From assembly GCA_013215295.1 (NCBI GenBank), contig JABSOZ010000005.1, positions 1 to 64,000 on the forward strand: a DNA stretch of 64,000 nt, read 5' to 3'. Source of the stretch: Colwellia sp. (lineage in GTDB: Bacteria; Pseudomonadota; Gammaproteobacteria; Enterobacterales; Alteromonadaceae). Shown piece after piece: positions 35,619-57,089 of this stretch. Both the position numbers and the translations under genes were made by a program. Under the pieces are notes generated by a model that saw only the letters and a program-made list of their open reading frames with translations, made no database searches and was not told the DNA's origin. The first letter of the stretch is position 1. Every line of letters starts with the position of its first letter.

Positions 35619-35771
35619 ATGTCAACAGCAAAGTTATTAGCACCTATCATATATTTTCTGCAATATGAAACGCCTAAAGCATGGATTGATAAAGGGATTA
35701 AAGCAGAAGTTTTATCTATTTTATTCATTGAACACCTGGCTTGTGAACTGAATGTCTATGTGTGCAAGTAA
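35619..35771 (+). pseudogene. miaE 5' remnant 1 (codons 1-44)
   Basis: Encodes MSTAKLLAPIIYFLQYETPK and continues through codon 44 (AWID..., ACEL), matching the intact miaE at 51899. After Glu-Leu the match stops, and NVYVCK then a stop follows. The frame is intact, so a 50-residue peptide could be made. Position 35736-35741 (GAACTG) is the breakpoint shared with the other stubs. It marks the left edge of the kinase/HD-GYP/TonB-receptor block. Confidence 0.9.
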
Positions 35772-35891
35772 TTTTTAACAAGTAATGGGGGTAGATGTCC
35801 CCTTGAATAGTTTACCTTAAGTTGTCTGCTTATTTTCTAATAGAACACTCAGTCTGCATTCACCTATTCTACAAGTGTATAGCGAGAATTA

Positions 35892-37805
35892 TCATTGAGG
35901 GAAAGTAATGATGAAGTGAGCACCTTTAGAGGGATTTAGGCAATTAAACGTACCGTTTAGCTTACCGGTAATAAGGTTGTAGCTAATCGACATACCTAAA
36001 CCAGACCCACCTGTTGAACGTGTTGTCGTGTAAAAAGGTTCGAAAACCTTTTCTCTTTGTTGTTCGGTTAAACCAACACCGTTATCGCGAAAATCAATGG
36101 TTACTTCACCATTTTCAAGTGATAGCTCTATAAATATCTCACCATGACTTGTGTCTTTGAAGCCATGAAGTGTCGAGTTCATGATCAAATTTGTCATAAT
36201 TTGGGCTATGACGCCCGGGAAGCCATTTAATGTAATTTTATTGTTTGAGATGACAGAAATAATATGGCTACCTTGTTTAAATTGAGGGCGAAGACTATGA
36301 ATGAGTTCTTCAATATAAGATTTTAATTCAAACTCTCGTCTTTTTTCACTACTTTGATCAACGGCAACTTGTTTGAAATTGCTAATAAGTTCGGCGGCTC
36401 TATGTAAATTTCGCATTAACATAGCACTTGATTCTTGAGCATCACTAAGGAGTTGCTCTAAAGATGATTTTTTCAATTGACCCGTTTTATATTCTGTTTC
36501 AAATACATTTATTCCTTCTGAAAGATGTGAGGCAGCCGTAACACATATTCCTATTGGAGTATTAATTTCATGAGCAACACCTGCGACTAGGCCTCCGAGG
36601 GCAGCCATTTTTTCAGATTCGACTAACTGATCCTGAGCAGTACTTAACTTTAAGTTAGCTTCAGCTAACGCTTCGATATTAATGTGTAATTCTTGATTTA
36701 TCTGATGCTGAATTTTCCTACTTTTATAGATTACGATCAGAAGGATTAGGATAGCTAAGCTAGCTATTATAGTGATAATAATGACAATATATTGTGTTTG
36801 AATAACGCTGGTTTGTTTAGCAAGCTCCATTTTTTGTATAATGTGCTGGCTTTCTAAATGTTTCAACAAGCTTTTTCTTTCGTTAATTTGAACGCCTAAG
36901 TTTAAGATTGAACGCTCTTTTTGTTGAATGTCACTCTTTAAGGTATATAAACTCTCTTTATTATTAGTGAGTTGAACTCGACTTACACCAAGCTCTTGTT
37001 TTACTTGTTTGTAGTTGTCTTGTAGAGATTGCACATCCTTTTTACTTTGCGTTAATTCATTTTTTTGTGTTTTAAGCTGTTTGTTTTGTGAAGTTAACTG
37101 CTCTTGCTGAATCCTTATCTCATTTTGTTGTAACTCCGACTTGGTTTGCTGCAAGGTAAATTGCTTTTCTCTTTCGATAATATCGTCTTTAAGGCTCTGT
37201 AACCTAAGAGACTGCGCTTGAATTTCATGTAAACTATTGGTAATAGTTTCATCCATCTCTTTTAGTACCCTGGCTATATCTAATTCAGTACCACCAAGGA
37301 CTAAAATATCAGGCGAACTCTTTAATTTAGCATTAACCATTTGGTATCTATTCATTTCGAAGACAATTTTGTTGTTTTCGGATTCAATAAAGTTAAGCAT
37401 GGTGTTTTTTTTATCGGCAGCATTATCACTAATAATAAGGGTTGCTTGCTCATTAAGTTGCATTGCAATTTTCATAATGTTTTTAGATTGCGTTTTATCT
37501 AAAACGATAATGTGTAACTTTTTTTCCTGCTCAATCGACGTAATTTTTATGACCTGAATGATAAAGTGCCTTACTTTCATGTTATGCATTTGCTGTAAAG
37601 CTTCGATAAATGCTTTATCGTCTCCATAAAATCCTATAGTAAAATTCGCAATGTTTTTTTCATTAGGCCATTCAACATATTTTATGAAATTAAATACGAA
37701 AGCGGCTTTAACTTTATTTGATACATCTTGTTGAAATGAAATTGCTGATTGGGAAAATAATAAAAGGCTAACAATAAGAGCCATATTCATTATGGCTCGT
37801 TTCAT
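35892..37805 (-). CDS. YfiR-domain sensor histidine kinase
   Basis: 637 residues from ATG 37805 (AGGA nine bases upstream; a signal peptide follows; the longer frame from 37847 lacks this). After the signal peptide lies a YfiR/DUF4154 domain (about 25-165, starting KVKAAFVFNFIKYVEWP), then a long coiled coil (about 175-335), one membrane helix (YIVIIITIIASLAILILLIV), and a kinase core: H-box LVAGVAHEINTPIG, N-box NLIMNSTLHGF, DNGVGL, GGSGLGMSI. YfiR in Pseudomonas is a periplasmic redox-linked repressor of a diguanylate cyclase; here it is fused to a kinase. Divergent from the HD-GYP gene, its likely partner. Confidence 0.9.
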   Translation of the reverse strand: MKRAIMNMALIVSLLLFSQSAISFQQDVSNKVKAAFVFNFIKYVEWPNEKNIANFTIGFYGDDKAFIEALQQMHNMKVRHFIIQVIKITSIEQEKKLHIIVLDKTQSKNIMKIAMQLNEQATLIISDNAADKKNTMLNFIESENNKIVFEMNRYQMVNAKLKSSPDILVLGGTELDIARVLKEMDETITNSLHEIQAQSLRLQSLKDDIIEREKQFTLQQTKSELQQNEIRIQQEQLTSQNKQLKTQKNELTQSKKDVQSLQDNYKQVKQELGVSRVQLTNNKESLYTLKSDIQQKERSILNLGVQINERKSLLKHLESQHIIQKMELAKQTSVIQTQYIVIIITIIASLAILILLIVIYKSRKIQHQINQELHINIEALAEANLKLSTAQDQLVESEKMAALGGLVAGVAHEINTPIGICVTAASHLSEGINVFETEYKTGQLKKSSLEQLLSDAQESSAMLMRNLHRAAELISNFKQVAVDQSSEKRREFELKSYIEELIHSLRPQFKQGSHIISVISNNKITLNGFPGVIAQIMTNLIMNSTLHGFKDTSHGEIFIELSLENGEVTIDFRDNGVGLTEQQREKVFEPFYTTTRSTGGSGLGMSISYNLITGKLNGTFNCLNPSKGAHFIITFPQ

Positions 37806-38044
37806 CGAATTTTTCCTAGCTGAATATAAGGAATGCGTCGATTCCAACTGTAAGTTTTGTATGATGTTTTAATCGCTTTTTTGTACTTCATTAGCAAGCT
37901 GTCGCGTATTATTTAACCATGCATAAACATTATTTTAGTCTATTCTTAATTTATTGGCATTTTTATTTTAATTCTGAATATTAGTTTCACTATTAATTAG
38001 GTATTAGCTCAGAAGCAGTTTGGCATTTTACTATAGGTGAACAG

Positions 38045-39595
38045 ATGAATAATGACGACATCTTGGTATTTATAGATGACACCGAAGAAGTGCGAGAACC
38101 GTCATCAAATTCTATTGATGATTTCTGGCATGTACTGGTGGTTGATGATGAAGTTGAAGTACATTCGGTAACTCGATTGGCTTTAAAAAACGTTGAAATA
38201 CTCGGTAAAAAACTAAAAATTCATTCTGCTGATAGTGCCAAGCAGGCTAAAGAAATTTTGCAAACCAACATTCCTTTTGCAATGGCAATAATTGACGTAG
38301 TAATGGAGTCAGACAAAGCGGGTTTAGACTTAGTTAGTTGGATAAGAGAGGTAAATAAAAACGCTCATATTCGCTTGGTGTTAAGAACAGGCCAACCAGG
38401 ACAAGCCCCTGAAAAGCAAGTCATTGCTGACTATGATATTAATGATTATAAGGAAAAAACAGAGTTAACCTCAACTAAGTTATATACGATGACCTATGCT
38501 TGTTTGCGAGCTTATCGAGATATAAAAGCGTTATATGAAAATAAAAAAGGCTTAGAAACGGTTATAAAATCTTCTAATAAAATTTTTGCCCATCAATCAA
38601 TTAATGAATTCACTCAAGGGGTACTGCAACAGTTATGTGCTTTACTCCATATTAAGACCAGTGCTGTTTTTTCAAAGGTTAATTTTGTCGCAGCATCACA
38701 TAGTGAAAATCGCAGTAAAGTTATTGCCGCTACGGGGCGATTTAGTACTTGCATAAATCATCATTTAGATGATGTTATTCATAAGCTTGGCGATAAAACA
38801 CTTAAAGAGGTATGCAATAAGGGTGGGCATTATTTTGGTGTCGATTTTTTTATCGGCGTTTATGAATCTCATTTAGACGGTAATAATTTGTTTTACATTG
38901 AAGGTGTTGAAAATCTCAATGATCTTGACCGGCAATTGATTGAAATCTTTGGCACTAATATTGGTGTTGCCTTTGATAACCAAGCAATGTCTGAGGAAAT
39001 GGAAATTACTCAGCGAGAATTGATTTATCGTATGAGTGAGGCGGTTGAAAGTAGATCGAAAGAAACGGGTAACCACGTAAAAAGAGTGGCGTTAACCTGC
39101 CAGTATTTAGCCAGAGCGATAGGGATGAATGATAAAGAGGTCGGCATACTTTATAAAGCCGCACCACTTCACGATATTGGCAAAATAGCCATACCCGATC
39201 ATATTTTAAATAAACCTGGCAAGCTTACCGACGAAGAATGGCAAAAAATGAAAACGCATGCGCAAATTGGTTGCGACATCCTTGCCTCGTCAGAACTTGC
39301 GGTTTTAAGCGCCGGTGCAATTGTCGCGGGTGAACATCATGAAAACTGGGATGGTTCAGGTTATCCTAAAGGATTAAAAGGAGAAGAGATCCATATTTAT
39401 GGTCGTATTGCAGCTATCGCAGATGTATTTGATGCCTTGGTAAATAAACGTTGTTATAAGCCTGCCTGGTCCATAGAAGATGTTGTTGATTTTTTTAAAC
39501 AAATGGCATCTGTGAAATTTGACCCAATTTTAGTAGAACTCGTTTTTGAACATTTAGATGACTTGGTGGCAATACAAGATAAGTACATTGATTAG
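38045..39595 (+). CDS. Response regulator with DUF3369 and HD-GYP c-di-GMP phosphodiesterase
   Basis: 516 residues. Receiver domain with Asp near residue 84 (AMAIIDVVME), a DUF3369 domain (about 180-330), and a C-terminal HD-GYP domain with the HD dyad (APLHDIGKIAIPDH, about 376), GEHHENWDGSGYPKGLKGEE (GYP about 438) and IADVFDAL. HD-GYP enzymes hydrolyse c-di-GMP to pGpG or GMP. With the divergent YfiR-kinase it likely forms a two-component c-di-GMP circuit that would favour motility or dispersal. Confidence 0.94.
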   Translation: MNNDDILVFIDDTEEVREPSSNSIDDFWHVLVVDDEVEVHSVTRLALKNVEILGKKLKIHSADSAKQAKEILQTNIPFAMAIIDVVMESDKAGLDLVSWIREVNKNAHIRLVLRTGQPGQAPEKQVIADYDINDYKEKTELTSTKLYTMTYACLRAYRDIKALYENKKGLETVIKSSNKIFAHQSINEFTQGVLQQLCALLHIKTSAVFSKVNFVAASHSENRSKVIAATGRFSTCINHHLDDVIHKLGDKTLKEVCNKGGHYFGVDFFIGVYESHLDGNNLFYIEGVENLNDLDRQLIEIFGTNIGVAFDNQAMSEEMEITQRELIYRMSEAVESRSKETGNHVKRVALTCQYLARAIGMNDKEVGILYKAAPLHDIGKIAIPDHILNKPGKLTDEEWQKMKTHAQIGCDILASSELAVLSAGAIVAGEHHENWDGSGYPKGLKGEEIHIYGRIAAIADVFDALVNKRCYKPAWSIEDVVDFFKQMASVKFDPILVELVFEHLDDLVAIQDKYID

Positions 39596-39733
39596 TACTA
39601 TAAATAAAATTGATCGAAAATATATTGAATGTATATGTAGTCAAAATAATATGATCCATTCTACTTATATTTTTTTTAAAAAATCATCAAAATCCACATG
39701 TAAATAGCATCATATAACGTCTTCTTGGTAGTA

Positions 39734-39769
39734 TTATCCCCTTTATCCCCTTTATCCCCTTTATCCCTT
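39734..39769. repeat. TTATCCCCT tandem repeat, about four copies
   Basis: Three perfect 9-bp units and one imperfect unit, in the gap between the HD-GYP and TonB-receptor genes. Followed at once by the GTGATAA hairpin at 39774-39791. Confidence 0.9.
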
Positions 39770-39773
39770 AGTG

Positions 39774-39791
39774 GTGATAAAAAGTTATCAC
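39774..39791. terminator. Perfect 7-bp hairpin between convergent genes
   Basis: GTGATAA, AAAG loop, TTATCAC. Between HD-GYP (plus) and TonB receptor (minus), where a bidirectional terminator would sit. The T run is weak on both strands, so the terminator call is tentative. Confidence 0.4.
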
Positions 39792-39827
39792 ATAAAGTAA
39801 ATATTTATGAGGGTATCGATTTTGCTA

Positions 39828-42182
39828 TTACAATTTCAACATAAATGATATACCAGCTTGACGATCTGCGGTTCTGGGGATCTGGTATCTGAAACCATCA
39901 CCGCTGTAAGTGCTAGCATAACTTTTATCAAAAAGATTCTTAACGAACAAGGTGATTCGAAATTTGTCCTGATTCATCGAATAGGCAAGGCTGGTGTTAA
40001 ATATCCCATATCTCGGCAACAAGGATTCGGGACTAAAGGTCCCGGTGTTACTAGGTAAATTTGAATGTTGCTCATCGGTAAAAATGTAAGCGCTATTCAA
40101 GATGAATTCGTCCTCGCCTCTAGGTATTTTATAGGAAGTTGTTAGTGAATATTTTAGATCCGGCGAAAAAGGCACTTCCAAGCCTGAACGATCAGTGCAA
40201 TCCTCTCCTCTGGGACAATTAAATTTGTCGATTTCCGCTTTGGTGATCGCTAAACCGGCGGTTAAGCGAAAATTATCCGAGGCCTGCCATACAATATCAG
40301 CTTCAAGCCCCGAAGTAATAACATCACCGGCGTTAGTTAGACGGGAAATAGTCGTTCCACTAGAAGTATCAAAGTTGTTGGCTTGAAAATCTTCAATAGT
40401 TGAGTGGAAATACGCAGAACTGAGCAGCATGCCTCCCACTTGCATTTTATATCCTAGCTCAAATGCCACAGACTTTTCGGGGCCTATCGGATCGATGTCA
40501 TTTTCTGACATATTATAGAATACGTTAAAACCAGGCCCTTTATAACCCTGTTTCACCGTAAAATATGCTCGGCTGGTTGGGGTCACGTCGTATTGAATAC
40601 CTAATTTAGTTGATACATTCGATTCACTAGTCGTACCAGAAAAATTACTATTCTCTGACGCAGGTCTGACACCTACTCCGCGCCTTCCAAAGGGATCGTT
40701 ATTCACTCTATGGTGATTGAAGTCAACTTTATCTTTAGTGTAACGTAAGCCATAAAGTAAACGCATGTCCTCACTGAAATTATATTTTCCATCAGCAAAT
40801 AAGGCTAAATTCTTAAACGAGGTACTCATGTAGCCGGTTGCGTCAACAATGTCATTTGCATTACAGGTAAGGCCTGGGTTTGCGTCTAATATCGCATCAT
40901 TTTGACCAGCATTGTTTTGGCAGCTCGCAAAACGAGTAAAGTTTCTTTCCGAAGTCATATGCCATAGGAATAGTCCTATCTGATATACATTGTTTTTATC
41001 CTGCGGGGAAGCTAATCGAAGTTCTTGCGAAGTCTGACGCCACTTTTGCGGACCTATGTCGTGTAACTGGAAAGGTACCCCGAATACCGGCAGGTTAGAA
41101 TCACCTGCAATCGATGTAAAGTCACCTTCACGAAATTCAGTATTTTCCCAAACTCGATGCGCTGTTATTGAGGTTAAATCGTACTCGCCGAGATCTTTAT
41201 CTAGCTGGATTGAGAAGGCGTCATTTTTATCAATGGTTCGTGTTTCAAAATCATGGTCGATCGCGCGTTGTTGCAAATCTATATCGGCGACACCATCAAC
41301 CACACCGTTACTGTCGGGACTTGCTTGTGAGGAAGGATTGCGTCCGCTTGATAAAGCTTCAAGATCCGCACAACAGTCGTCGTTAGCGCGATAATATTCC
41401 AGAATGAATTTTACTGTGGTATTTTCATCAACGTCGAAGTCAACTTTGGCTCTTAATGCCTCCCTATCGTAGCCGTTAACGGTTTCGTTACTATAAATAT
41501 TGTTAATATAACCATCAAACCCGGCTTTTAATAAGGTCATACTCGCCCTCGTGTCATCACTTAGAGGTCCTGAAATTTTGACCACGGTTCGATGTTCGCT
41601 GTCCTCCGCCAGCATAGTGTTAATTTGAGATTCCAATGTATCAGCGGGGCTTGATGTAATAATATGAACAACACCCGCGGATGCATTTTTTCCAAATAAT
41701 GTGCCTTGTGGTCCACGCATCACCTCAATTCGCTCAACATCATAGAGATCCGCAAATGCCTGACCGGAACGGCCTAATACCACCCCATCCACCAAGGTTG
41801 AAACGCTAGGTTCGGCAGCAATACTAAAAGAAATAGTGCCAATGCCTCGAATCGTGATCGCCGAGTTTCGTGTGGTATTACCTTTTCTATAGCTCATAGA
41901 GGGAAAATAAGCCTGCAATTCTTCCATGTTATTGGCGAATGTCGCTAACACCTGATTTTTTTGCAATACGGTAGTAGCGACAGGCACGTCTATTAATTTT
42001 TCAAGCCGTTTTTGCACCGTCACATCGATATTTAAAAGTTCTTCCATAGACAAATGAAAAAAGTTTTCGTCCTTTTTTTCATTATCACCTAAGGTAAAAC
42101 TTGAGAATAATAAAAAACTAAATCCAATAATGCATTGAATATAGTTTTTTAAGTGAATTTGGTGTGACTTTGCAATACTCAT
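39828..42182 (-). CDS. TonB-dependent outer-membrane receptor
   Basis: 784 residues. Signal peptide (IIGFSFLLFSSFTLGDNE), N-terminal plug domain (VPVATTVLQ, ITIRGIG, VDGVVLGRSGQAFADL, IEVMRGPQGTLFGKNASAG) and a beta-barrel that ends in a C-terminal aromatic/hydrophobic strand (QAGISFMLKL). It imports a substrate by TonB-ExbBD energy; the barrel resembles large receptors for carbohydrate, siderophore or steroid-like compounds in marine bacteria. No metabolic neighbours give the substrate. It lies inside the first block between miaE stubs. Confidence 0.93.
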   Translation of the reverse strand: MSIAKSHQIHLKNYIQCIIGFSFLLFSSFTLGDNEKKDENFFHLSMEELLNIDVTVQKRLEKLIDVPVATTVLQKNQVLATFANNMEELQAYFPSMSYRKGNTTRNSAITIRGIGTISFSIAAEPSVSTLVDGVVLGRSGQAFADLYDVERIEVMRGPQGTLFGKNASAGVVHIITSSPADTLESQINTMLAEDSEHRTVVKISGPLSDDTRASMTLLKAGFDGYINNIYSNETVNGYDREALRAKVDFDVDENTTVKFILEYYRANDDCCADLEALSSGRNPSSQASPDSNGVVDGVADIDLQQRAIDHDFETRTIDKNDAFSIQLDKDLGEYDLTSITAHRVWENTEFREGDFTSIAGDSNLPVFGVPFQLHDIGPQKWRQTSQELRLASPQDKNNVYQIGLFLWHMTSERNFTRFASCQNNAGQNDAILDANPGLTCNANDIVDATGYMSTSFKNLALFADGKYNFSEDMRLLYGLRYTKDKVDFNHHRVNNDPFGRRGVGVRPASENSNFSGTTSESNVSTKLGIQYDVTPTSRAYFTVKQGYKGPGFNVFYNMSENDIDPIGPEKSVAFELGYKMQVGGMLLSSAYFHSTIEDFQANNFDTSSGTTISRLTNAGDVITSGLEADIVWQASDNFRLTAGLAITKAEIDKFNCPRGEDCTDRSGLEVPFSPDLKYSLTTSYKIPRGEDEFILNSAYIFTDEQHSNLPSNTGTFSPESLLPRYGIFNTSLAYSMNQDKFRITLFVKNLFDKSYASTYSGDGFRYQIPRTADRQAGISFMLKL

Positions 42183-42462
42183 GTTTTTAACTCCCTACGT
42201 AAGAAATAATAAGCAGAAAATAGACAACATCCAAAACTTAATGACTTTAAAATTTTTGTATACGTTATCATTATAGTTAGTTATAGGATTTTTGAGTTAT
42301 GTTTTACCTATCAAAAAACATTCCTTTAATTTTTTTAGATATTAATGTTATAACAACAAAAAAATTCACCCGTTGGCAAAGAAATTATAAAGAATGTCTA
42401 GATTTTGGGGAGCTAGGCTTCAACGATTCATATCTAAAGTTTAAAGTGAAGAATTAGCACTA
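42183..42462. other. Upstream region of the TonB receptor, no gene
   Basis: AT-rich, holding the receptor's promoter on the minus strand; no clear operator was recognised. The miaE stub 2 follows. Confidence 0.4.
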
Positions 42463-42594
42463 AAGTCGACCAAAGAATTATTAGCACCGATTATGTCATT
42501 CCTAAATTGTGAAACACCACATGCTTAGATCGATGAAGCGATTAAACCAGAAAGCTTTCCTATATTATTAATGTTCATCTTGTATGTGAATTGG
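42463..42594 (+). pseudogene. miaE 5' remnant 2, decayed
   Basis: Clear DNA match to miaE codons 1-44: start codon ATG changed to AAG, then TCGACCAAAGAATTATTAGC, an in-frame TAG where Trp22 should be (CATGCTTAG), and a one-base deletion near 42572 before TGTGAATTG. Breaks at codon 44 as in the other stubs, then GATGCCTAGGTATG. It marks the boundary between the TonB-receptor block and the ABC/AttH block. The 42595-42940 stretch after it has no gene. Confidence 0.88.
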
Positions 42595-42940
42595 ATGCCT
42601 AGGTATGAAACTCAGTTTTTAGAAGCAAATAATATGTGCAGTTATTGTCTAATATTCACTCCTTTCGCTAAGCGTAAACTACGCTGTAATACTCAAAAAT
42701 AACTCCACTTATCACAATATATAGACTCTTGAAAACCTTAAGAATGTAGCCATCAATATAATAAACAAACACAAATATAACTAATCATTATTGCGATATT
42801 TACCTCATGATTCTCATCAGTTTTAGCGCTAACTATATCCCTAAATAAATGGTGTCATACCAACGTATTAAGCGATATATTTTCTAGTGGTTTCGAGAGT
42901 GTTGTTACGCTAAAATGGCTTACACTAACAAGGAGTTAAC

Positions 42941-43594
42941 GTGATTGAAGTAAAAGATTTGTGTTTTAGCCGTAATGATGGCGATAACAAACAAAACATT
43001 TTAAATCAGCTTAATTTGTCTGTACCTGCAGCACAACACCTTGCCTTGCTTGGTGATAGTGGATCGGGTAAAACCACTTTTTTGCATATGTTAGCTGGCC
43101 TGTTGCAAGCAGATAGCGGCTTCGTAAGTGTTAATAACCAAGAGCTCTCATTGCTTAGTGAAACAGAACTCGCGCTTTATCGCCGTAAAATAGGACTAAT
43201 ATTTCAGCATTACCAATTGCTAGATTGTTTAACCGTAAAGCAAAATATTTTATTTCAGCACAAATTAAATTATCCAATGCAAGCGGCTAATGAATTTGAT
43301 CATCTCGTCAATGAACTAGGGCTGCAAAGCAAGCTCGATGCATTACCTCATCAGCTGTCAGGTGGCGAACAACAAAGAGTCGGCATCGCAAGAGCCTTAG
43401 TTAATAAACCTCAGATTATTTTTGCCGATGAACCGACTGGCAACTTAGATCAAAAGCGCTCGCACCAAGTGGTTAAACTACTTACCGAATTATGCAGTGA
43501 GCGACAAATCAACTTGGTCATGGTGACGCATAGTCATCAATTAACGGATTACTTTGATCAGGTTAAAGTGCTAAGAGATGGCTGTTTTGACTAA
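42941..43594 (+). CDS. ABC transporter ATPase (LolD/AttE type)
   Basis: 217 residues starting at GTG 42941 with AAGGAG five bases upstream. Walker A GDSGSGKTT, signature LSGGEQQR, Walker B IIFADEPTG, H-loop VMVTHSH. It belongs to the LolD/MacB/FtsE group. It overlaps the permease gene by 17 bases and is followed by an AttH-like gene, so the three form an operon resembling attE-attFG-attH. Confidence 0.94.
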   Translation: MIEVKDLCFSRNDGDNKQNILNQLNLSVPAAQHLALLGDSGSGKTTFLHMLAGLLQADSGFVSVNNQELSLLSETELALYRRKIGLIFQHYQLLDCLTVKQNILFQHKLNYPMQAANEFDHLVNELGLQSKLDALPHQLSGGEQQRVGIARALVNKPQIIFADEPTGNLDQKRSHQVVKLLTELCSERQINLVMVTHSHQLTDYFDQVKVLRDGCFD

Positions 43595-45989: not shown

Positions 45990-45993
45990 TCTC

Positions 45994-47109: not shown

Positions 47110-47346
47110 GTATCCAGACGTAAATGTTTTAACTATATTTGGTAGAGTTATACACAAAATAGTCATATTACAAAATTGCTTAAGGCGAAATTAATAAAAG
47201 CAGACTCTTTTTTGATAGTAATGTCGTAAGTAAGATAGTAAATATTATTTGATATTGAATCATCTGTAAAAATAGCCGCGCAATTCTTAATATGAATAGT
47301 ATAAAATCAATCATTACTTCTTATTTATTGCGAAGAACTTCACCAA

Positions 47347-47514
47347 ATGTCGACGACAAAATTATTAGCGCCCATCTTATCTTTTTTAAAATGTGAAACG
47401 CTTCAAGCTTGGATCGATGAAGCGATAAAACCAGAAAGTCTTCCTATATTATTAATTGATCACTTAATTTGTGAGCTAAATGTAAATATGTGCAAGTTAA
47501 GTTTCAGTAATTAA
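47347..47514 (+). pseudogene. miaE 5' remnant 3 (codons 1-44)
   Basis: Encodes MSTTKLLAPILSFLKCETLQ and continues to ICEL at codon 44, then NVNMCKLSFSN and a stop. The frame is intact. The sequence after the break (AATGTAAATATGTGCAAGT) matches that after stub 1 (AATGTCTATGTGTGCAAGT) at 16 of 19 bases, though it is not part of miaE. It marks the boundary between the AttH operon and the esterase block. Confidence 0.9.
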
Positions 47515-47538
47515 ATGAAAGGGATTAGACGTAGATAA

Positions 47539-48393
47539 TTATTTTTCATAGATAAGTTCTAGGGTATTCTCAAGTGAAGCATTCAAAATATTATCATGAT
47601 GAACCATGTACCATTCATGATGTATTGTTAAGTTAGGGATCGAGAGTTTTTCCACGCCTTCAATAAAATTGATTACCGTCAAATGATTACCTAATGGAAA
47701 TGCAGAGGTAATGTATAAATTGGCGTCAATTTTATTTTCAAGGAGTAAGCGTTTTTCGATTAAATTCTGCATTAATTCTGCTTGGTCCCAATATGGAGCA
47801 TCGTTAGCTAGGTAATTTTTAAACAGTGGTTGCTGGTGATCATCGATTAACATAAAAACCGTAGCAGCTAAGCCACCCAATGAAGCACCTTGAAAACTTC
47901 GATTGTTGGCATTAATACGGTAAGAAGATTCGATCAATGGCATAAATTCTTCTCTAAAGAAATCAAGATAAGTTATTGCGCCAGGCAATCGATAATCAAT
48001 GGCACGACGATCGCTTCCCAGAGGACCTTCTTCGATAGCAACTACGATAACCTCCAGATTCTTTTGTTCGATATGATTTACAAGCGTTTTAAAGTTCCAC
48101 TGACCATCTAGTGCGTAGATAATAGGGTAGTTCTTATCAATATTTTGATGATAAGAAGCAGGTAGATAAACATGAAAAGGATAAACAATGCCCATTACAG
48201 CAGAGTTCAATGCAGACTTACCGACATACTCCCCCTTAAGCGAATTCACCCAAGCATCTATTCCCATTTCATTTTGATTTGAAAAATGAGAACAACCGCT
48301 GATAAATAAAGAAGTCATTAACACCAATGAAAATACTAATGACTTAACCTCTGAAACTGTGGGAAACCTGATGAACTGTAATATTTGTTGCAT
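47539..48393 (-). CDS. Secreted/lipoprotein alpha/beta esterase (EsD-like)
   Basis: 284 residues. The signal with lipobox LFISGC suggests a lipoprotein. The esterase-D fold is shown by IIYALDGQWNF, IDYRLPGAITYLDFF, and the nucleophile elbow GASLGG. The C-terminal His is probably in HHEWYMVHHDN. Relatives hydrolyse trilactone siderophores or simple esters; the substrate here is unknown. It sits between miaE stub 3 and the SUMF-like gene. Same-strand neighbour at 48522 is 128 bases away, so an operon is uncertain. Confidence 0.86.
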   Translation of the reverse strand: MQQILQFIRFPTVSEVKSLVFSLVLMTSLFISGCSHFSNQNEMGIDAWVNSLKGEYVGKSALNSAVMGIVYPFHVYLPASYHQNIDKNYPIIYALDGQWNFKTLVNHIEQKNLEVIVVAIEEGPLGSDRRAIDYRLPGAITYLDFFREEFMPLIESSYRINANNRSFQGASLGGLAATVFMLIDDHQQPLFKNYLANDAPYWDQAELMQNLIEKRLLLENKIDANLYITSAFPLGNHLTVINFIEGVEKLSIPNLTIHHEWYMVHHDNILNASLENTLELIYEK

Positions 48394-48521
48394 TTAAACT
48401 CCTTAAGTAGCCCATTAATGGGCTAAATCTAACTAAACGATTGATTGATTTGAAATTATCGAATGTACATAACATTCATATTTATAATTGCTCAAATTCT
48501 TTGTAAAAGCCGAGTGTTAAC

Positions 48522-49550
48522 TTATTCACCTGAAGGGAAACTAGCGGTTTGCTTAGTGGCTAATTTTGCCGTTTTATCAGTTTGTTTATATAATATTTGA
48601 GCAGCATCTAGCTCTTTGCGAAAGGTTTTTGTGCTGTTATTTATCTGGCAACCATGACTTTCTTGTAAACAATTATCACTGGCAGTTAAATCCATAGCAA
48701 TACGTAAGCCAACCATATCAGCCGCGCCACCCTTAGGGCTGACAGAACGGCCAGTAACGGCTTCTTCAATGAAAACGAATGAGCCACTGCGTATTATCAC
48801 TGAATTATCATCATCACAATTGGTAAGCCAAGCTTTACTATTTGCTGGCGCGCCAGTATAGCCAATATGAAAGCAATCGGCGGTATATTCAAAAACATTA
48901 CCCACCATGTCATAGAAGCCCCAAGGGTTGGCTTTATAAACCCCGACCATTTTTTTACTTGGAGGATTGTCTGCGCAGTTGATATCAGTCATCGCGCCAT
49001 TTTTAAGACCAACATTTTCATATTCGCAAGCTAATTCAACATCATTACCAAAGTAATATCGAGTTGATATTTGATCAGCGCGTGCTGCGTACTCCCATTC
49101 AGCTTCACTGACTAAACGATAAGGTTTACTGGTTTGCTGTGCTAACCATGAAACATAAGCTTTTGCATCTTTAGGACTAATACAAGAGACAGGTTCAAAG
49201 TCAGCTTCACTAGGCCAATGATAAGAAATATCAACAACAGCAATACCTGTGTCATTTATAGAGAGGGCACTACAAGTCGTGTTTTCCAGATCATAGGAGG
49301 TATCTTCAATAAATTGCTTAAATTCTCGATTAGTTACTTCATATTTGGCTAATGCATACTTTTGTACAGTGACATTGTGGGCTGGTTTGCTGCTTAAATT
49401 GGAATGCCAAATATCACTGCCCATTTGAAAACTGCCTGTTGCAACAGTAATCATCTCTGGTTCGATTGGCTCAATTTGTTCGGCATTTATTGGCATGGCT
49501 AAAGTGGTTAAAAATAATAAACTGCTGATGGTGATTAAATTCTTCTTCAT
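48522..49550 (-). CDS. Secreted formylglycine-generating-enzyme (SUMF)-like protein
   Basis: 342 residues with a cleavable signal peptide (MKKNLITISSLLFLTTLAMP). The FGE-sulfatase domain runs from VATGSFQMGSDIW through KYEVTNREFKQF, WEYAARAD, WGFYDMVGNVFEYTADCF to the GGAADMVGLRIAMD end. Canonical formylglycine-generating enzymes use two copper-binding Cys; here the clear Cys include LACEYENV and DINCADN, so catalytic identity is uncertain. No sulfatase gene is near. Many such proteins act as regulators, toxins or adhesins instead. It diverges from the winged-helix regulator at 49873. Confidence 0.85.
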   Translation of the reverse strand: MKKNLITISSLLFLTTLAMPINAEQIEPIEPEMITVATGSFQMGSDIWHSNLSSKPAHNVTVQKYALAKYEVTNREFKQFIEDTSYDLENTTCSALSINDTGIAVVDISYHWPSEADFEPVSCISPKDAKAYVSWLAQQTSKPYRLVSEAEWEYAARADQISTRYYFGNDVELACEYENVGLKNGAMTDINCADNPPSKKMVGVYKANPWGFYDMVGNVFEYTADCFHIGYTGAPANSKAWLTNCDDDNSVIIRSGSFVFIEEAVTGRSVSPKGGAADMVGLRIAMDLTASDNCLQESHGCQINNSTKTFRKELDAAQILYKQTDKTAKLATKQTASFPSGE

Positions 49551-49872
49551 TATTAAAATATCCTGGTAATTAATTGCTGCCCGCCGCTAAAAATAGCTTA
49601 GGTGTGATTAGTAAGGATATTGAACTAAAATTCGAGTTTGAAGTCTTATTGCTTTTCAATTGTTGTCAATCGCCACATCATTTTTTTCAATCGCTATTCA
49701 ATCCTTAGTGGTGAAATGATTAAACAACCGATTATAAACAATGTATTTACGTGTAAATTAGCGTCAGAAATGGAAATTAATAACCTAAGGTAATTTCCTG
49801 TTATTTGTCCTTATGGTCAAATTATTGTGATATTAAATTGTTAACCTCTAAAGAGAAGAATAATAAATTGAT
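49551..49872. other. Divergent promoter region between SUMF-like and regulator genes
   Basis: About 320 bases. The main feature is a set of four TCAAT boxes; otherwise AT-rich. Confidence 0.5.
49656..49702. promoter_or_regulatory. Four TCAAT direct repeats on helical spacing
   Basis: TCAAT at 49656, 49666, 49687 and 49698, spaced 10, 21 and 11 bases, i.e. one, two and one turns of DNA. OmpR/PhoB-type winged-helix proteins bind such direct repeats in tandem; the divergent gene at 49873 encodes one. Prediction, not shown. Confidence 0.5.
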
Positions 49873-51717
49873 ATGATCTACCACTTTCAAGACTTTGCTT
49901 TTAACAGTAAAGATTTAGTCTTATTAAAACAGGGCGAAATTGTAAAATTACGTATTAACGAAGCAAAAATCTTAGCGTTATTGCTCAACTCTCCTGAGAG
50001 TATTCTGAGTAAAAGGGATATTTTTGAAAAAGTTTGGTCGGGAGAAGTGATTACTGAGCAACCTATCTTTCAGAACATTAGTCGCTTGCGAGCCATTTTT
50101 GGCAGCAAAGCCATTGTTAATCACCCAAAAAAGGGCTATCAATGGAAAATCCCACTAACTCCCGCCGCTACTGTTAGCGCTGAATTAGCCACTGTTCAGA
50201 TAAAAAATAAACAACACAAGGCAGGCTATTATGTTGCCGCTATCGCCTTAGTCAGCATATTTTTGAGTGTGTTTTTTCTTAAACAATCAGTTAAAGAAGA
50301 GCAAAAACAGGCACCATCATATAAATTTGCTTTGATGTCGGTGAATAGTCAAATAGCTGAATTGTCACAAGCGCAAGTAACGAATAAGTTTCAACAAGTA
50401 CTGAGTCAATACGGTAATGGTGTTGCTATCGTAATCGATGAGAAATTAACTTATCGAGAGTTGGACGCCAATTTAGAATACATCTTGTGGGACAGGTTAA
50501 ACCAATACCAAGCTGACGGGCTGATCCTGTTAAATATTTCATCTAAATATAACAAATTATATTTAGATCTTGAGGTTGTCGGTAAAAGCTATCATTGGCA
50601 CAGTGAGTTACTCGCCGATAACATGACTGAAATTTTACAGCAGTTTACTCAACAACTCAGTTATATAAATTCAGCAAAATTATTCGAAAAGCCCAAAATC
50701 TCCGATAAATATATACATGCTAAATTACAATTATTGCATCAACAGCATCCTGAAGATGTCAGCGTTTTAAGTAAAATAGTGATGATGGAAAAGGATTTAA
50801 GTCATGCACTGTTGCTCGCGCAGCAGTTAGAAACTTTGGCCGTAAAGCAGGGTGACTTAGTTTATCAAGCGTACGCTTATAAATTACAAGGTGAAATATA
50901 TACCAGAAAAAGTCATTTCGAACGGGCTCAGCAATCACTAGACGCTGCTGTCGATATATATCGACAATATGGTGATATCGATAATCAAATCGCCATTTCA
51001 GATGCATTAACAATTTTAGCTTACTTTGAACATGATTATGAAAAAGTACGAGGCTTAGTTATAGAAACAATTAACTTAGCAAAACAGATAGGCGATTATA
51101 AAAATGAATTCTGGCAAAATTTATATTTATCAAAAATAGCCGCTATTTTTGAGCAAAAAACCGATAAAGCTGACTACTTTCAACGGGGAGAAAGTGTTTA
51201 TCACTCTCGATTTTTTGAAGCCGCAGCGGAAGTTAAGTATCAATTCTATGCACAAGTGCTGGCAAGGTTCTATAACGACAAAGCAAAACTTATCGAAAAT
51301 TTACAAAAAATGCTCGCCACGGCTAACCAACATCAAGGTTTACCTTCGTATTATAAAACAGGGCCACAAGCTGAATTAACCCAGCTATATCTCGATGATG
51401 AGAATTTTGAAGAGGCGTTGTCACTATTTGACCTAACAGCAACATTAACATCAGTAGAAAAAAGCCTTCTTGCCAAAATTTATATGCACAGGGGGAAAAA
51501 GGTACTCGCCCTTGATTACGCTAAACAAGCTTATCAAGAATCGGTTTTAGCAGGGGAGCTTCAAACTTCACTTGACTCCGCGGTACTATTAATTGAAATG
51601 AGTGAAGATGAGGAAATTAAAGCGCTTATTCATAAAGCGTTATATCTTGATTATATTAAAGATAACGCCTCGCCAGATTGGATAGCAAATAATCAGAGGT
51701 TTTTTAAAAAAGCTTGA
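49873..51717 (+). CDS. CadC-like membrane-anchored winged-helix regulator with TPRs
   Basis: 614 residues. N-terminal OmpR-type DNA-binding domain (1-95; SILSKRDIFEKVWSGE, IFQNISRLRAIFGS, NHPKKGYQWKIP), a single membrane helix (about 117-135; YYVAAIALVSIFLSVFF), and a periplasmic C-terminal region with a receptor-like part and TPR-like helices (YAYKLQGEIYTRKSHFERAQ). Such one-component membrane regulators act directly on DNA; the signal is sensed outside. Four helical-phase repeats upstream are a likely target, controlling itself and/or the SUMF-like gene. Confidence 0.87.
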   Translation: MIYHFQDFAFNSKDLVLLKQGEIVKLRINEAKILALLLNSPESILSKRDIFEKVWSGEVITEQPIFQNISRLRAIFGSKAIVNHPKKGYQWKIPLTPAATVSAELATVQIKNKQHKAGYYVAAIALVSIFLSVFFLKQSVKEEQKQAPSYKFALMSVNSQIAELSQAQVTNKFQQVLSQYGNGVAIVIDEKLTYRELDANLEYILWDRLNQYQADGLILLNISSKYNKLYLDLEVVGKSYHWHSELLADNMTEILQQFTQQLSYINSAKLFEKPKISDKYIHAKLQLLHQQHPEDVSVLSKIVMMEKDLSHALLLAQQLETLAVKQGDLVYQAYAYKLQGEIYTRKSHFERAQQSLDAAVDIYRQYGDIDNQIAISDALTILAYFEHDYEKVRGLVIETINLAKQIGDYKNEFWQNLYLSKIAAIFEQKTDKADYFQRGESVYHSRFFEAAAEVKYQFYAQVLARFYNDKAKLIENLQKMLATANQHQGLPSYYKTGPQAELTQLYLDDENFEEALSLFDLTATLTSVEKSLLAKIYMHRGKKVLALDYAKQAYQESVLAGELQTSLDSAVLLIEMSEDEEIKALIHKALYLDYIKDNASPDWIANNQRFFKKA

Positions 51718-51898
51718 TTTAGAACCTTAAAACCTTCGTAGCAATAAGCCGTTAAAAGGTATTACGTAGGCATTACTTACTTTAGCCAAGTATCTTATCT
51801 GCTTAATTTGATGTGTCCAATAAATAGCTACGTAATTATTGAAACTTATATGATAAAATCCTTCATCATATAATATTTATTACCAATAAGTTTAATCA

Positions 51899-52657
51899 AT
51901 GTCCGTCGAAAATTTATTAGCACCAATTAAGTCCTTTCTTCAATGTGAAACTCCTCAAGGATGGATTGATGAAGCAATTAAACCAGAAAACTTATCTATT
52001 TTATTAATTGATCATCTCGTGTGTGAATTGAAGGCAGCTCAAAGTGCCATGTTTCTTATACGTAAGTATGCTGTAGATAAAGAAAGTGCTAATGCTCTTT
52101 TAGAATGGCTAAAGCCTTTTGAAACACTGATTTATAAAAAGGAAGGGGATTGGCGAGAACTCCCGTCTAAAAACAAATTGACCAAATCGGTGATTCCTCG
52201 TTCTAATTCAATATACGGTCAGGATCTTATTGATAAGATGGTTCTGTTGATTAAAGAGGAACTGCATCACTTCTACCAAGTGTTAGAAATAATGGATGAG
52301 TATGATGTTGAATATAAGAGCATAACGCCATGTCGATATGCCAAAGGCATGTTACGACACGTTAAAACATTTGAGCCCGATGCTTTGATTGATAAGCTGA
52401 TTATAGGTGCTTATATTGAAGCTCGCTCTTGTGAAAGGTTTGCTAAACTTGCCCCGCATGTTGATAAACGCTTAGGTGAATTCTATATTTCTTTACTCCG
52501 AAGTGAAGCAAGACATTATCAGGACTACCTAACTCTTGCTACTGAAATAGCGGGTGGCGATATCTCTGAGCGAGTGAAGTTTTTCGGTGAAAAAGAAGCT
52601 GAACTTATTTCAACTCCCGATGATGACTTTAAATTTCATAGTGGTGTACCGAGTTGA
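51899..52657 (+). CDS. miaE: tRNA-(ms2)io6A-hydroxylase, intact copy
   Basis: 252 residues. Di-iron, ferritin-like monooxygenase that hydroxylates the isopentenyl group at A37 of tRNAs reading UNN codons. Metal-binding and helix motifs are seen: VCELKAAQSAMFL, IKEELHHFYQVLE, YIEARSCERFAKLAP and LLRSEARHYQDYL. It is the only complete copy in the window. Residues 43-44 (Glu-Leu) are where all truncated copies break. It shares about 84% of residues with the 3' fragment at 55256 (my estimate by eye), so it looks like an imported relative rather than a recent duplication. Upstream TATGATAAAAT resembles motifs before stubs 1 and 3. Confidence 0.93.
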   Translation: MSVENLLAPIKSFLQCETPQGWIDEAIKPENLSILLIDHLVCELKAAQSAMFLIRKYAVDKESANALLEWLKPFETLIYKKEGDWRELPSKNKLTKSVIPRSNSIYGQDLIDKMVLLIKEELHHFYQVLEIMDEYDVEYKSITPCRYAKGMLRHVKTFEPDALIDKLIIGAYIEARSCERFAKLAPHVDKRLGEFYISLLRSEARHYQDYLTLATEIAGGDISERVKFFGEKEAELISTPDDDFKFHSGVPS

Positions 52658-52738
52658 ATTCACTGTTAATATTTACAGTGTCCAATTGTTAAAGGAAATA
52701 AGGTATTATAAGTAAATTCAAATGTTTAGGTGAAGGAC

Positions 52739-53683
52739 ATGGAAGTAAATAGTCATAATAAACTGGAATTACACTACTATTTTTCAGATCAATCGCACGA
52801 CATAGATGCATCTATCAGAAATGAGTGTGAATCTGAAATTTTAGCTATTGTTAATGAAGCTGCATCTATATTTGATATCAGTATAAAACTCCTCACTGAA
52901 CCTCCAATTGAAGGAGGCTTCAGAGATATTTGGAAAGCTATTGGTGATAACTCTAATCAACTTCAAGTCCTCTTGGTCGCTATAGGTGTAGTGACAACCG
53001 TTTATTTCAATTACACACCAGAAGTTGATGAGCGAAAGAAAACTCTTGAGGAGCTGCAAATTCAGGAATTGAAGCATCGTCTGAAAGGAGTTAATGGCGC
53101 TACAGCTGAAGAGAAATTTGAGATTGCAAATGCTGTTGCAATTAAGTTATCTAAAAACCTTAAAATTATTAAAAGAAAATCAAATTTCTATTCTCATCTA
53201 AGTCATTACCCAAAAGTATCAAGTATAAGTTTAAATGCAATTAATGAGCAGACAGTAATGACAATAAAAGAGACACAGGTTTCACGTCAGGCTTTTTATA
53301 AGTTCATTCTAAGTACAAACAAATTGAAGGTAATGGAAGATCATACAGCTGAAATAGAAATAATATCACCAGTTTTAAAAGACGGTAATTACAAGTGGAA
53401 GGGGGTATACAAAGAGCAAGTTATTAGCTTTAATATGACGGACAATAAGTTTAGAGACTCTATTTTCATCGATGGATTTAATTTTCATGCTGGAACTTCA
53501 ATCAAATGTTTGCTTCAAGTTCATCGTGAATTAGATGAAGTAGGTGAGATAAAAATCAAAGGGTACTCAGTTCCAACGGTAATAGAAATTCTTGATGGTT
53601 CTACCGTGCATAAGACAAAACAAGGAAAGGCCTATCTCCACGCTAAGGCAATGATTGATGGTCAAGAAGATTTATTTGTTTAG
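52739..53683 (+). CDS. Membrane-associated hypothetical protein paired with HNH
   Basis: 314 residues from ATG 52739 (AGGT seven bases upstream). An N-terminal soluble section (HYYFSDQSHDIDASIRNECE), then EGGFRDIWKAIGD, a single hydrophobic segment (LQVLLVAIGVVTTVYF, about residues 70-88), a charged coiled-coil part (ERKKTLEELQIQELKHRL) and a long beta-rich C-terminal domain. No named domain recognised. The HNH gene starts 11 bases later, so they form an operon. Membrane protein plus nuclease pairs are seen in defence systems, but nothing proves that here. Confidence 0.7.
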   Translation: MEVNSHNKLELHYYFSDQSHDIDASIRNECESEILAIVNEAASIFDISIKLLTEPPIEGGFRDIWKAIGDNSNQLQVLLVAIGVVTTVYFNYTPEVDERKKTLEELQIQELKHRLKGVNGATAEEKFEIANAVAIKLSKNLKIIKRKSNFYSHLSHYPKVSSISLNAINEQTVMTIKETQVSRQAFYKFILSTNKLKVMEDHTAEIEIISPVLKDGNYKWKGVYKEQVISFNMTDNKFRDSIFIDGFNFHAGTSIKCLLQVHRELDEVGEIKIKGYSVPTVIEILDGSTVHKTKQGKAYLHAKAMIDGQEDLFV

Positions 53684-53694
53684 GGAGTAGTTAA

Positions 53695-54315
53695 ATGCCT
53701 TTGTGTGCTATTTGTGGATTACGGGAAAGTGCTTCAAGAGATCACGTTCCTCCTAAAGCTATATTTCCACGGCCGAGACCAAACAACTTAATCACCGTTC
53801 CAGCCTGTTTTGAGTGCAACAACGGGGCTTCCGATTATGATGATTTATTTAAAGTCTTTTTGAGTTTACAAGCCTCAGCGCATAGTGAAATTGCTGAGAG
53901 ATTATTTAACGAGAATACAATTAGGACGCTTGAACGAAATCAAAGATTACTAAATACTATTAGGGAGGAATCTCGGCAACTTGAAGTAACTGATGCTAAC
54001 GGCCAACTAACAACAGCAACTGGTATTTTATGGAATTCTGAAGCACACGACAGTGTAATTGAAAGAACCATTCGTGGACTTTATTTTCATCATCAGAGAA
54101 TTATTATGCCTGAGAATTGTGAATTGCGGGTTCAATTTCTCAGGGGAATACCTGAAAATATTGACCAATTTTTAGGACTTATGCAAGAGGTTGAGATAGG
54201 GGATCGCCAAGTAGTTTATAAGTATTATATCCATCAAGATGATCCACGCCACTCAATGTGGCTTTTCAATTTTTACAATGCTCATTGGGCCAGTGGCTAT
54301 ACTAAGCCAACATGA
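53695..54315 (+). CDS. HNH-like nuclease-fold protein
   Basis: 206 residues with GGGAG before ATG 53695. A treble-clef HNH-type motif: CAIC (Cys4, Cys7), RDHVPP (Asp16, His17), and ACFECNNG (Cys38, Cys41). These are residues that bind zinc and cut DNA in HNH endonucleases; the second catalytic His is not obvious. The C-terminal 130 residues are unassigned. Co-transcribed with the membrane protein gene. Found between the intact miaE and the truncated miaE. Confidence 0.72.
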   Translation: MPLCAICGLRESASRDHVPPKAIFPRPRPNNLITVPACFECNNGASDYDDLFKVFLSLQASAHSEIAERLFNENTIRTLERNQRLLNTIREESRQLEVTDANGQLTTATGILWNSEAHDSVIERTIRGLYFHHQRIIMPENCELRVQFLRGIPENIDQFLGLMQEVEIGDRQVVYKYYIHQDDPRHSMWLFNFYNAHWASGYTKPT

Positions 54316-54539
54316 TTTTTGATATAAAATACTTTAAATGGAATGTTATTTGAATCTTGACTCAAGTCAACAATCTAAATTATTTCATCTAACTTTGAGA
54401 AAACTCTACTTGTCAAAGCTCCCTCAAAGCCCAAAATAAACAAATCAGAACCTAAATTTCATCTCTCTCATATTCTATGGTTGAAATCAAACCAATTAAA
54501 AGGAATGAATTTCAGGAATACTAAAAAGAGAGTATTCAA

Positions 54540-55025
54540 TTAATCTGAAACTAGGCAATTAACAGTCATAGTTTGTCTAATCTTTGGGTCGTTATACATA
54601 GACTCACTTAGTTCAATAACCCATCCGTCAGACTCTTCATAAAAGACAGTTGAATATGGACTTCTTTTGCCAGAGGTTAGTTGTGCTATGGCGCAAAACT
54701 CAACAGCATGGCCTATGATTAGCGAACATGCCCTATATCCTTTCCTAGTCCATTCATAGTATTTTCTACCACTACCCATTTTAGAATGATTTATATCAGC
54801 TGAACACGTCCTTTCTGGACTGTAGTATCCCATCTTAATAGATATTTGCCTGTTGATATGTTTACTTTCTTTATCTGATAATATCATCTTCTCGCCCTTT
54901 CCATCTTTGAGTTTTTCAGGGAAGAGACTTTTCATATTTCTATCTAATTGTGATTCAGCGAACGTAAGTGGTGAAGCTAATATAAGAGATAAAAGAGCTA
55001 AGACCCCCTTAGAATATAATGCCAT
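54540..55025 (-). CDS. Periplasmic hypothetical protein
   Basis: 161 residues with a signal peptide (LALLSLILASPLTFAESQLD). The mature part has about four cysteines (ERTCSADI, RACSLIIG, EFCAIAQ, VNCLVSD), suggesting disulfides in the periplasm. No family recognised. It is the last gene before the truncated miaE, on the opposite strand to the HNH pair. The 54316-54539 stretch between is AT-rich and featureless. Confidence 0.65.
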   Translation of the reverse strand: MALYSKGVLALLSLILASPLTFAESQLDRNMKSLFPEKLKDGKGEKMILSDKESKHINRQISIKMGYYSPERTCSADINHSKMGSGRKYYEWTRKGYRACSLIIGHAVEFCAIAQLTSGKRSPYSTVFYEESDGWVIELSESMYNDPKIRQTMTVNCLVSD

Positions 55026-55255
55026 TGTTTTTTTACCTATCCTTTACTTTTTGGTATGTTTATCGTTATCCTAACTGATTTTTAAAGCATTTAAAATTAT
55101 AATTTACAATACGTTGTGTTAAAACTGTGGGATTATAGGTTAGTGAGTAGTAACAGTTTGGAAATACTGTTTTGTAGTTCCGTTCTATACAACTTATGAG
55201 CAAGTGTTTAATATTATTCAACAATTAATTTAGTTTGTTCAATGTTTACTTTGGC

Positions 55256-55888
55256 GAGCTTAAAGCAGCACAATCTGCGATGTTTCTGATAAGAAAATAT
55301 GCTGTTGATAAAGAAAGTAGTAATGCGCTACTCGCTTGGTTACAGCCTTTTGAACAATTAATTTATAAGCGACAAGGTGATTGGCGTTCATTGCCGTCAA
55401 AAAATAAGTTAACCAAAGCAATATTGCCCAAGTCGGGTACTGCGCATGGGCAAGACCTTATCGATAAAATGGTTTTACTGATAAAAGAAGAGTTGCATCA
55501 CTTTTACCAAGTACTCGAAATGATGGACGTATACGGTGTCGAATATCAAAGTATTACTCCGTGTCGTTATGCGAAAGGTATGTTAAGGCATGTGAAATCG
55601 TTCGAACCTGACGCTATGGTGGATAAGTTGATTATAGGCGCTTTTATTGAAGCAAGATCGTGTGAACGTTTTGCTAAAATAGCACCGCATGTTGATAAAA
55701 AACTAGGTGATTTTTATATATCATTACTGCGTTCAGAAGCTCGGCATTACCAAGATTACTTATCATTAGCGACAGAAATTTCTGGGACGGATATTTCGGA
55801 ACGTGTTAAGTACTTTGCTAATATAGAAGCTGAGTTAATTATTAGTCCCGATGAAGACTTTAAGTTCCACAGTGGCTTACCGGTATAA
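55256..55888 (+). pseudogene. miaE: miaE 3' part (codons 43-252)
   Basis: Matches miaE from codon 43 to the end (ELKAAQSAMFLIRKYAVDKE to DEDFKFHSGLPV). The first 42 codons are missing, replaced by AATGTTTACTTTGGC. A TTG 21 bases upstream could start a short-headed protein, but there is no native start. The truncation point falls on the codons that end the three stubs. Probably the displaced original 3' end of the resident miaE, since it lies directly before the diguanylate cyclase and lpxH. Confidence 0.85.
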
Positions 55889-56934: not shown

Positions 56935-57089
56935 ACGGCTTCTCTATAAAATTTTTGCACATTTTAGCAGTTAACTAAAAGTGAACTCAATGTAAAAGTA
57001 CTATAAAAGGGAGTTTTATAAGCTTTTTTTTGTTTAATATATAATTAATCTTTATATGGATAACAATATGATAGATTGAAGTAGTAATA

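Follow-up and report, generated by a model that had tools for sequence, protein, structure and literature searches.

The staphylococcal cassette chromosome (SCC, with SCCmec) targets the 3′ end of rlmH, and recombinase-less pseudo-SCC as well as tandem SCC exist. Accretion of cis-mobilizable elements (CIME) and integrative and conjugative elements (ICE) in streptococci likewise leaves recombinase-less elements with attachment (att) sites in tandem, driven by a tyrosine integrase and at another target, and integron arrays hold small cassettes, some with toxin-antitoxin genes, stacked at one site. Islands at dusA supply a replacement 5′ end to the gene, and both the dusA islands and SXT at prfC use tyrosine integrases in cis. 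In the Enterococcus cassette chromosome (ECC), an att site measures about 50 bp, and half of the ECCs have more than one attR (PMC6222049). Here we present a comparative analysis of a stretch of 64,000 nucleotides of Colwellia sp. (assembly GCA_013215295.1, contig JABSOZ010000005.1, positions 1 to 64,000; hereafter the window), in which one complete and four broken copies of the tRNA-modification gene miaE are separated by blocks of unrelated cargo genes. This array was very probably built up by integrative elements, one upon another, for which a large serine recombinase (LSR) selects miaE as target.

A preliminary description of the window had proposed five miaE pieces broken at one codon, and this was confirmed by the Pfam family PF06175, a MiaE N-terminal profile, DNA repeat search and alignment. 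The pieces are three 5′ stubs, one complete gene and one 3′ piece, and every break lies at Glu43. Coincidence of the breakpoints had been set beforehand as a test, and the GA of codon 43 was located in all five pieces, at 35745 (stub 1), 42588 (stub 2), 47473 (stub 3), 52025 (intact gene) and 55256 (3′ tail). PF06175 detects four of the five on the contig (35634, 47362, 51914 and 55253) and the N-terminal profile gives four N-terminal copies in the window genome; stub 2, starting at 42463, was missed by PF06175 and was recovered by repeat search and alignment. Since it carries a 1-nt deletion and has lost its start codon, stub 2 is decayed. The break at Glu43 stood as first described, but the extents of the stubs had to be shortened, the final ~25 nt of each as first delimited being an arm common to the stubs and not miaE. 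The coordinates of all features are collected in Table 1.

Table 1. Features of the miaE array in the window, with miaE pieces and half-sites first and cargo genes thereafter.
Feature	Positions	Strand	Basis
miaE 5′ stub 1, codons 1-43; putative displaced gene start (attL, B half)	35619..35746	+	PF06175, alignment
Predicted P′ half-site of element 1, 25 nt	35747..35771		best 25-mer of the window, both strands, 24.1 bits
miaE 5′ stub 2, decayed	42463..42589	+	DNA repeat search, alignment
Predicted P′ half-site of element 2, decayed	42590..42614		1.9 bits
miaE 5′ stub 3; putative attL of last element, B half	47347..47474	+	PF06175, alignment
Predicted P′ half-site of last element	47475..47499		second-best 25-mer of the window, 23.7 bits
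Complete miaE, foreign 3′ half; read as carried by last element	51899..52657	+	PF06175, alignment
Expected P half-site of attR, decayed	55231..55255		-2.2 bits, top 0.5% of window positions
miaE 3′ tail, codons 43-252; putative displaced native gene end (attR, B′ half)	55256..55888	+	PF06175, alignment
Cargo block 1: YfiR-like/histidine kinase, DUF3369-HD-GYP response regulator, TonB-dependent receptor	35892..42182		Pfam
Cargo block 2: ABC ATPase, FtsX-like permease (by reading), CrtC lipocalin	42941..47109	+	Pfam, reading
Cargo block 3: esterase, FGE-sulfatase-like protein, 614-aa regulator (by reading)	47539..51717		Pfam, reading
Block 4 gene: match to phage-defence candidate PDC-S42	52730..53683	+	PADLOC E 2.6e-108; no Pfam match at 0.01
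Block 4 gene: HNH_5-like protein	53695..54315	+	weak Pfam match below cut-off; weak PDC-M01B matches
Block 4 gene: 161-aa protein	54540..55025	-	no Pfam match at 0.01

The two 3′ halves in the window differ in origin when compared with the genus sample, which comprised six genomes, namely the window genome (G000) and the congeners G001 to G005. The 3′ half of the tail shares 94% protein identity with the native miaE of G001, 93% with that of G002 and of G005, and 88% with that of G003. That of the complete gene is set off from those four congeners, its nearest counterparts being G004 (89%) and a gene of another genus in G148 (89%). The tree and the protein comparison group the window tail with native congener miaE and leave the complete gene outside. 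Judged by sequence, the 3′ tail is the native 3′ half of the genus and the 3′ half of the complete gene is foreign to the four congeners. A second, divergent MiaE-like gene of ~205 aa lies outside the stack on another contig of the window genome (C7:130678-131217, L003), and copies scoring like it are present in all five congeners.

The candidate recombinase was found in relatives. At four stub loci, an open reading frame (ORF) of ~550 aa begins right after the stub and is assigned by Pfam to the serine recombinases; among these four, PF00239 is present in 4/4, PF13408 in 3/4 (one below cut-off) and PF07508 in 2/4, with all three domains in two. A search of the Protein Data Bank with the LSR sequence matched no more than one resolvase-family chain. 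A profile made from the four proteins detected the family in nine of 285 genomes of the bacterial family at 1e-40, six of them at miaE; the three further LSRs are more distant and show no MiaE within 13-15 kb around them. The named-genome scan yielded 11 LSR loci, with Alteromonas flava, Alteromonas sp. C1M14, two Pseudoalteromonas, Shewanella abyssi, Colwellia polaris and a Rheinheimera metagenome-assembled genome among the hosts, together with four distant LSRs of Burkholderiales, whose flanks, followed for up to 10 kb, show no MiaE.

After merging of both scans, the close clade holds nine distinct LSR loci, and all nine lie at a miaE stub or tail. Their genes start ~40-70 bp from the miaE break and adjoin the stub in seven loci and the tail in two (G023 and Rheinheimera), and the nine proteins form one side of a branch against eight distant LSRs with support 100/99. 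In each of the nine genomes a 5′ stub and a tail of miaE accompany a complete copy; these pieces fall on two contigs in Shewanella and in Rheinheimera, where the LSR is moreover truncated to ~268 aa in the latter. Tails with no LSR match occur in the window and in G114, the stub of which is on another contig than the tail. With respect to the mover, the preliminary description was right that none is found in the window genome, but the LSR at the miaE breaks of relatives had been overlooked. The sole match in the window genome at 1e-8 is a distant resolvase-domain ORF of ~620 aa on another contig (C52:90390, L096), which the tree separates widely from the LSRs at miaE.

Plasmid-like genes, some below cut-off, were found in all three LSR elements that were scanned (L059, L064 and L075); they comprise a Mob_Pre relaxase (A. 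flava), RepL-like genes (one above and one below cut-off), ArdC and a weak match to ArdA. On plasmid records the LSR gave 17 matches, all below 60% identity, with 33% as the best of the 12 listed, and MiaE matched eight records, all below 60% identity with at least 80% of the protein covered and no stub-like piece seen; in viral contigs, none of 118 pattern matches for the LSR was confirmed. Six element-borne miaE copies were placed in the tree, a pattern filter having removed those of Pseudoalteromonas and Shewanella as well as two intact genes (L028 and L042); the six are not united in a single clade, and the gene was therefore captured more than once.

The ends of the LSR-bearing elements define an attachment site of recognizable geometry. 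The arm before the tails (P) and the arm after the stubs (P′) are inverted, with TGCACA/TGTGCA equidistant from GA. The attP deduced from the element ends of G072 measures 25+2+25 nt with a central GA and perfect 11-nt outer arms, and this GA coincides with the first two bases of codon 43. In a structural study of serine integrases, contacts extend along the entire 25-bp attP half-site, and a central dinucleotide is described (PMC3783163).

One register is shared by 14 of the 16 half-sites that adjoin an LSR or belong to a tail, and these 14, all from LSR-linked loci, were compiled into a half-site matrix. When the matrix was run over both strands of the window, the arms of stub 1 and stub 3 ranked first and second, and the third match scored 13.7 bits. 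Sixteen of 20 stubs that were not in training and have no adjoining LSR score within the top 2.3e-5 of window positions; two far-end stubs (G023 and G259) were reserved for testing, the stubs of G096, G121 and G145 were located by hand patterns, and the decayed stubs of G001-G003 were left unscored. The half-sites of intact genes in 17 genomes score from -28.7 to +0.5. The P′ half-site of stub 3 is identical in all 25 nt in G004, G044 and G121, and the complete miaE of the window holds an attB-like site centred on 52025-52026.

These observations are consistent with the following course of events. The LSR would recombine an attP, made of inverted ~25-bp half-sites around GA, with an attB in miaE centred on the GA of codon 43. 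Integration would split the host gene into a 5′ stub with the P′ arm (attL) and the P arm with a 3′ tail (attR), while the element's own intact miaE would keep the enzyme in the cell and serve the following element as a new attB. The most recent element of the window would extend from about 47475 to 55255 and comprise block 3, miaE and block 4, and blocks 1 and 2 would be older inserts whose tails are gone. As no LSR of the clade is found in the window genome or its congeners, the four cargo blocks of the window are recombinase-less remnants, which an LSR acting in trans would have moved or which later lost their LSR gene.

An arrangement with block 4 as a separate, 3′-supplying element was also considered and was given up in favour of a single element that encloses the complete miaE, since the LSR-bearing elements show that layout. 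Repeated insertion of cargo at one codon, with displaced ends and a working gene left behind, as previously suggested, is supported by the breakpoints, the half-sites and the variable cargo; the account of the single events needs amendment, as the last insert most likely carried the complete miaE within it.

Broken miaE is found elsewhere in the bacterial family as well. A survey of 290 genomes with the N-terminal profile (codons 1-46) gave more than one match in 21, and re-examination of 19 of these (all except the window genome and G004) left 17 with at least one stub, bringing the stubs to 19 genomes of nine genera; a second near-full copy in G182 and a weak partial match in G273 were not counted. 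The neighbouring gene cysS, probed with its first 46 codons, served as control and gave more than one match in none of 98 genomes (97 with a match), against eight with more than one miaE match in the same genomes, so the multiplicity of miaE is beyond chance. The distance from stub to gene ranges from ~0.2 kb (G023) to 26 kb (G227). Cargo tested at the stub loci includes ParDE, CcdA-type and RelE-type toxin-antitoxin genes and a sulfatase, along with type III restriction-modification and defence candidates. In G123 (L068 3991-5715), two small antitoxin-gene cassettes are stacked upstream of miaE as a miniature of the window array. In G259 (L077), the complete miaE is inverted 1.3 kb past a miaE stub, and the replacement gene may be carried in either orientation.

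Congeners carry different cargo at the same codon, as the preliminary description had anticipated for an insertion hotspot. Block 2 directly precedes miaE in G003 (93% DNA identity) and G002 (80%), and in G001 it lies upstream of miaE (80%) with an interval of 3.5 kb between, the ORFs of which read as a regulator, an aldehyde-dehydrogenase-like and a homoserine-dehydrogenase-like protein; short decayed stub traces are present to the left of block 2 in all three. G004 has the order stub, block 3 (92% identity), stub, selD block and complete miaE, and G005 has a lone intact miaE with no cargo seen on a contig that begins 4.4 kb upstream. Such variation at codon 43 supports repeated insertion at a fixed site.

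Several observations weigh against a stack built by this LSR. No member of the clade was detected in the window genome (at 1e-8) or in the five congeners. Three stubs stand against one tail in the window, so that two tails were lost or never made. The P′ arm of window stub 2 and the P arm on the tail side are weak (Table 1), the matrix fails on window stub 2 and on the stubs of G145, G148 and G259, and the right half of L085 and the tail of L086 are out of register, both having been excluded from the matrix after the misfit was seen. Comparison of block 3 between the window and G004 in 60-nt windows gave 78-91% identity in stub 3 and 83-100% from the core onward at the left end; at the right end, however, identity drops from 93% to 73-85% before the miaE 5′ end. 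The 5′ end of the intact gene is 81% identical to the G004 stub after block 3 and 81-82% to the other copies. With this drop and no closer 5′ end, joint travel of cargo and miaE 5′ end is unsupported here.

Stubs with neither their own tail nor an adjoining LSR were found in 11 other genomes (G004, G044, G060, G062, G096, G121, G123, G145, G148, G164 and G283; in G148 stub and gene lie on different contigs), blocks 1 and 2 of the window being likewise devoid of a tail. A tail-less insert apparently carries a miaE 5′ end of its own, by which the site would be restored. Eight genome pairs were tested for the point at which the complete gene passes from foreign to native sequence, and in four of them the likelihood interval (106-207, 102-122, 126-265 and 57-121) spans the core at 120-126 or comes within 4 nt of it, so the recombinase may define the right end as well, half of the site being the 5′ end of miaE. 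An integron-like LSR cassette system can tentatively be proposed on these grounds, in which half of the att site would be the 5′ end of the host gene (promoter and codons 1-43), though we consider it somewhat improbable. If it held, each insertion would rebuild both a working miaE and the target, and recombinase-less cassettes of less than 1 kb to ~7.5 kb could stack limitlessly and cross species with an LSR in trans. The question raised by the tail-less cassettes is whether an LSR can use a hybrid site in such a way that its target is never consumed.

This direct route needs a non-canonical pairing, either B-P′ with B-B′ or P-B′ with B-B′. Pairings other than attP with attB do not recombine according to the study cited (PMC3783163), and therefore either the LSR of the miaE clade is laxer or the tail-less layouts arose by later deletion. 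The chance of the latter is put just short of even: the tail-less stacks (blocks 1 and 2, those of G001-G003, G044, G060, G062 and others) would not be direct cassette insertions; rather, after a full element had integrated, recombination with the displaced tail would have removed the 3′ half of its internal miaE, its right cargo and its P arm. The presence of tails in all nine LSR genomes, set beside the 11 stub genomes above, speaks for such deletion, as does what may be the decayed remnant of a tail in G197, 7.5 kb past the gene. The four switch intervals at or near the core speak against it, and the other four pairs, with weak or distant change points, lend it no support.

The stubs could also have originated by homologous recombination or by tandem duplication and decay, the shared break then going back to one ancestral truncation. 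The fragments are indeed old and diverged, and block 2 with its decayed left stub traces is common to three congeners. However, the longest exact words measure only 10-16 nt among the 5′ copies of the window and 15 nt between its two 3′ halves, the break is common to stubs of nine genera and the arm to most of them, LSRs sit at the break, and the cargo varies among genomes; on sequence grounds this origin is unlikely, with very little probability left to it. Insertion by a tyrosine integrase or a transposon has a described precedent in the islands with an integrase at one site in the dusA 5′ end (PMC4482086), but it is scarcely credible here, given the LSR geometry of the att ends, the LSR at the break in relatives and the lack of PF00589 near miaE in all six genus genomes, transposase families not having been searched for (the nearest PF00589 lies ~127 kb from miaE in the complete G002, and two of the six miaE contigs are short).

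Around the stack, the flanks of the window show further differences from relatives. In G072, G103, G148, G197 and G227, purF and a small membrane-protein gene (by reading) directly precede the miaE stub; in the window, ~27 kb of other genes (8230-35618) separate them from it, possibly representing older layers with eroded stubs. On the other side, a diguanylate cyclase gene (55900-56934) lies between miaE and lpxH in the window and in G001-G003, and partly in G005, and lpxH follows miaE directly in G004 and G044; the diguanylate cyclase may be another insertion. The third matrix match, at 56951 between the diguanylate cyclase and lpxH, was considered as an older arm and dropped because its spacing to the next GTGA is 7 nt too long and no miaE remnant was seen in three frames.

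The miaE locus would provide Alteromonas-like Gammaproteobacteria with a recurring route by which blocks of genes, including defence candidates, toxin-antitoxin pairs, signalling and selenium genes, are gained at a tRNA-modification gene with the gene itself kept. With one 5′ stub per event, past insertions would remain as a readable record, and the analysis offers a predicted LSR/att pair with a defined 2-bp centre.

In open-licence PubMed Central (PMC) full texts, no description of miaE as an integration site was found, and the main text of PMC12884075 does not contain 'miaE'; the same paper notes that many attP sites complete the gene entered. The literature searched likewise gave no mention of the miaE target, of the LSR clade, of a complete target gene carried within the element or of recombinase-less stacks at miaE. 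The statement that no system of this kind has been described was nonetheless too strong, since comparable stacked SCC and ECC are on record.

Overall, the miaE system shares with phage-type serine integrases (A118/LI, phiC31, Bxb1) the resolvase, recombinase and zinc-ribbon domains (all three in 2/4 of the LSRs) and the 25-bp attP half-sites around a central dinucleotide (PMC3783163); it differs in that its LSR has no relative in the viral contigs scanned and its elements carry plasmid-like genes. With the dusA and prfC (SXT) islands it has in common insertion near the 5′ end of a protein gene (for dusA, PMC4482086), but an LSR takes the place of the tyrosine integrase. Tandem recombinase-less elements are shared with CIME/ICE, which differ in their tyrosine integrase and target; small stacked cassettes, some with toxin-antitoxin genes, are shared with integrons, from which the miaE locus appears to differ in having no PF00589 match nearby, no search for attC sites having been made. 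The nearest relatives in kind are SCC/SCCmec and ECC, which share LSR-driven cassettes at one chromosomal gene with variable cargo. The target here is codon 43 of miaE and not the rlmH 3′ end, either a complete target gene or the entire 5′ end of it arrives with the element, the hosts are Gammaproteobacteria, and a single LSR gene stands in place of the ccrA/B pair.

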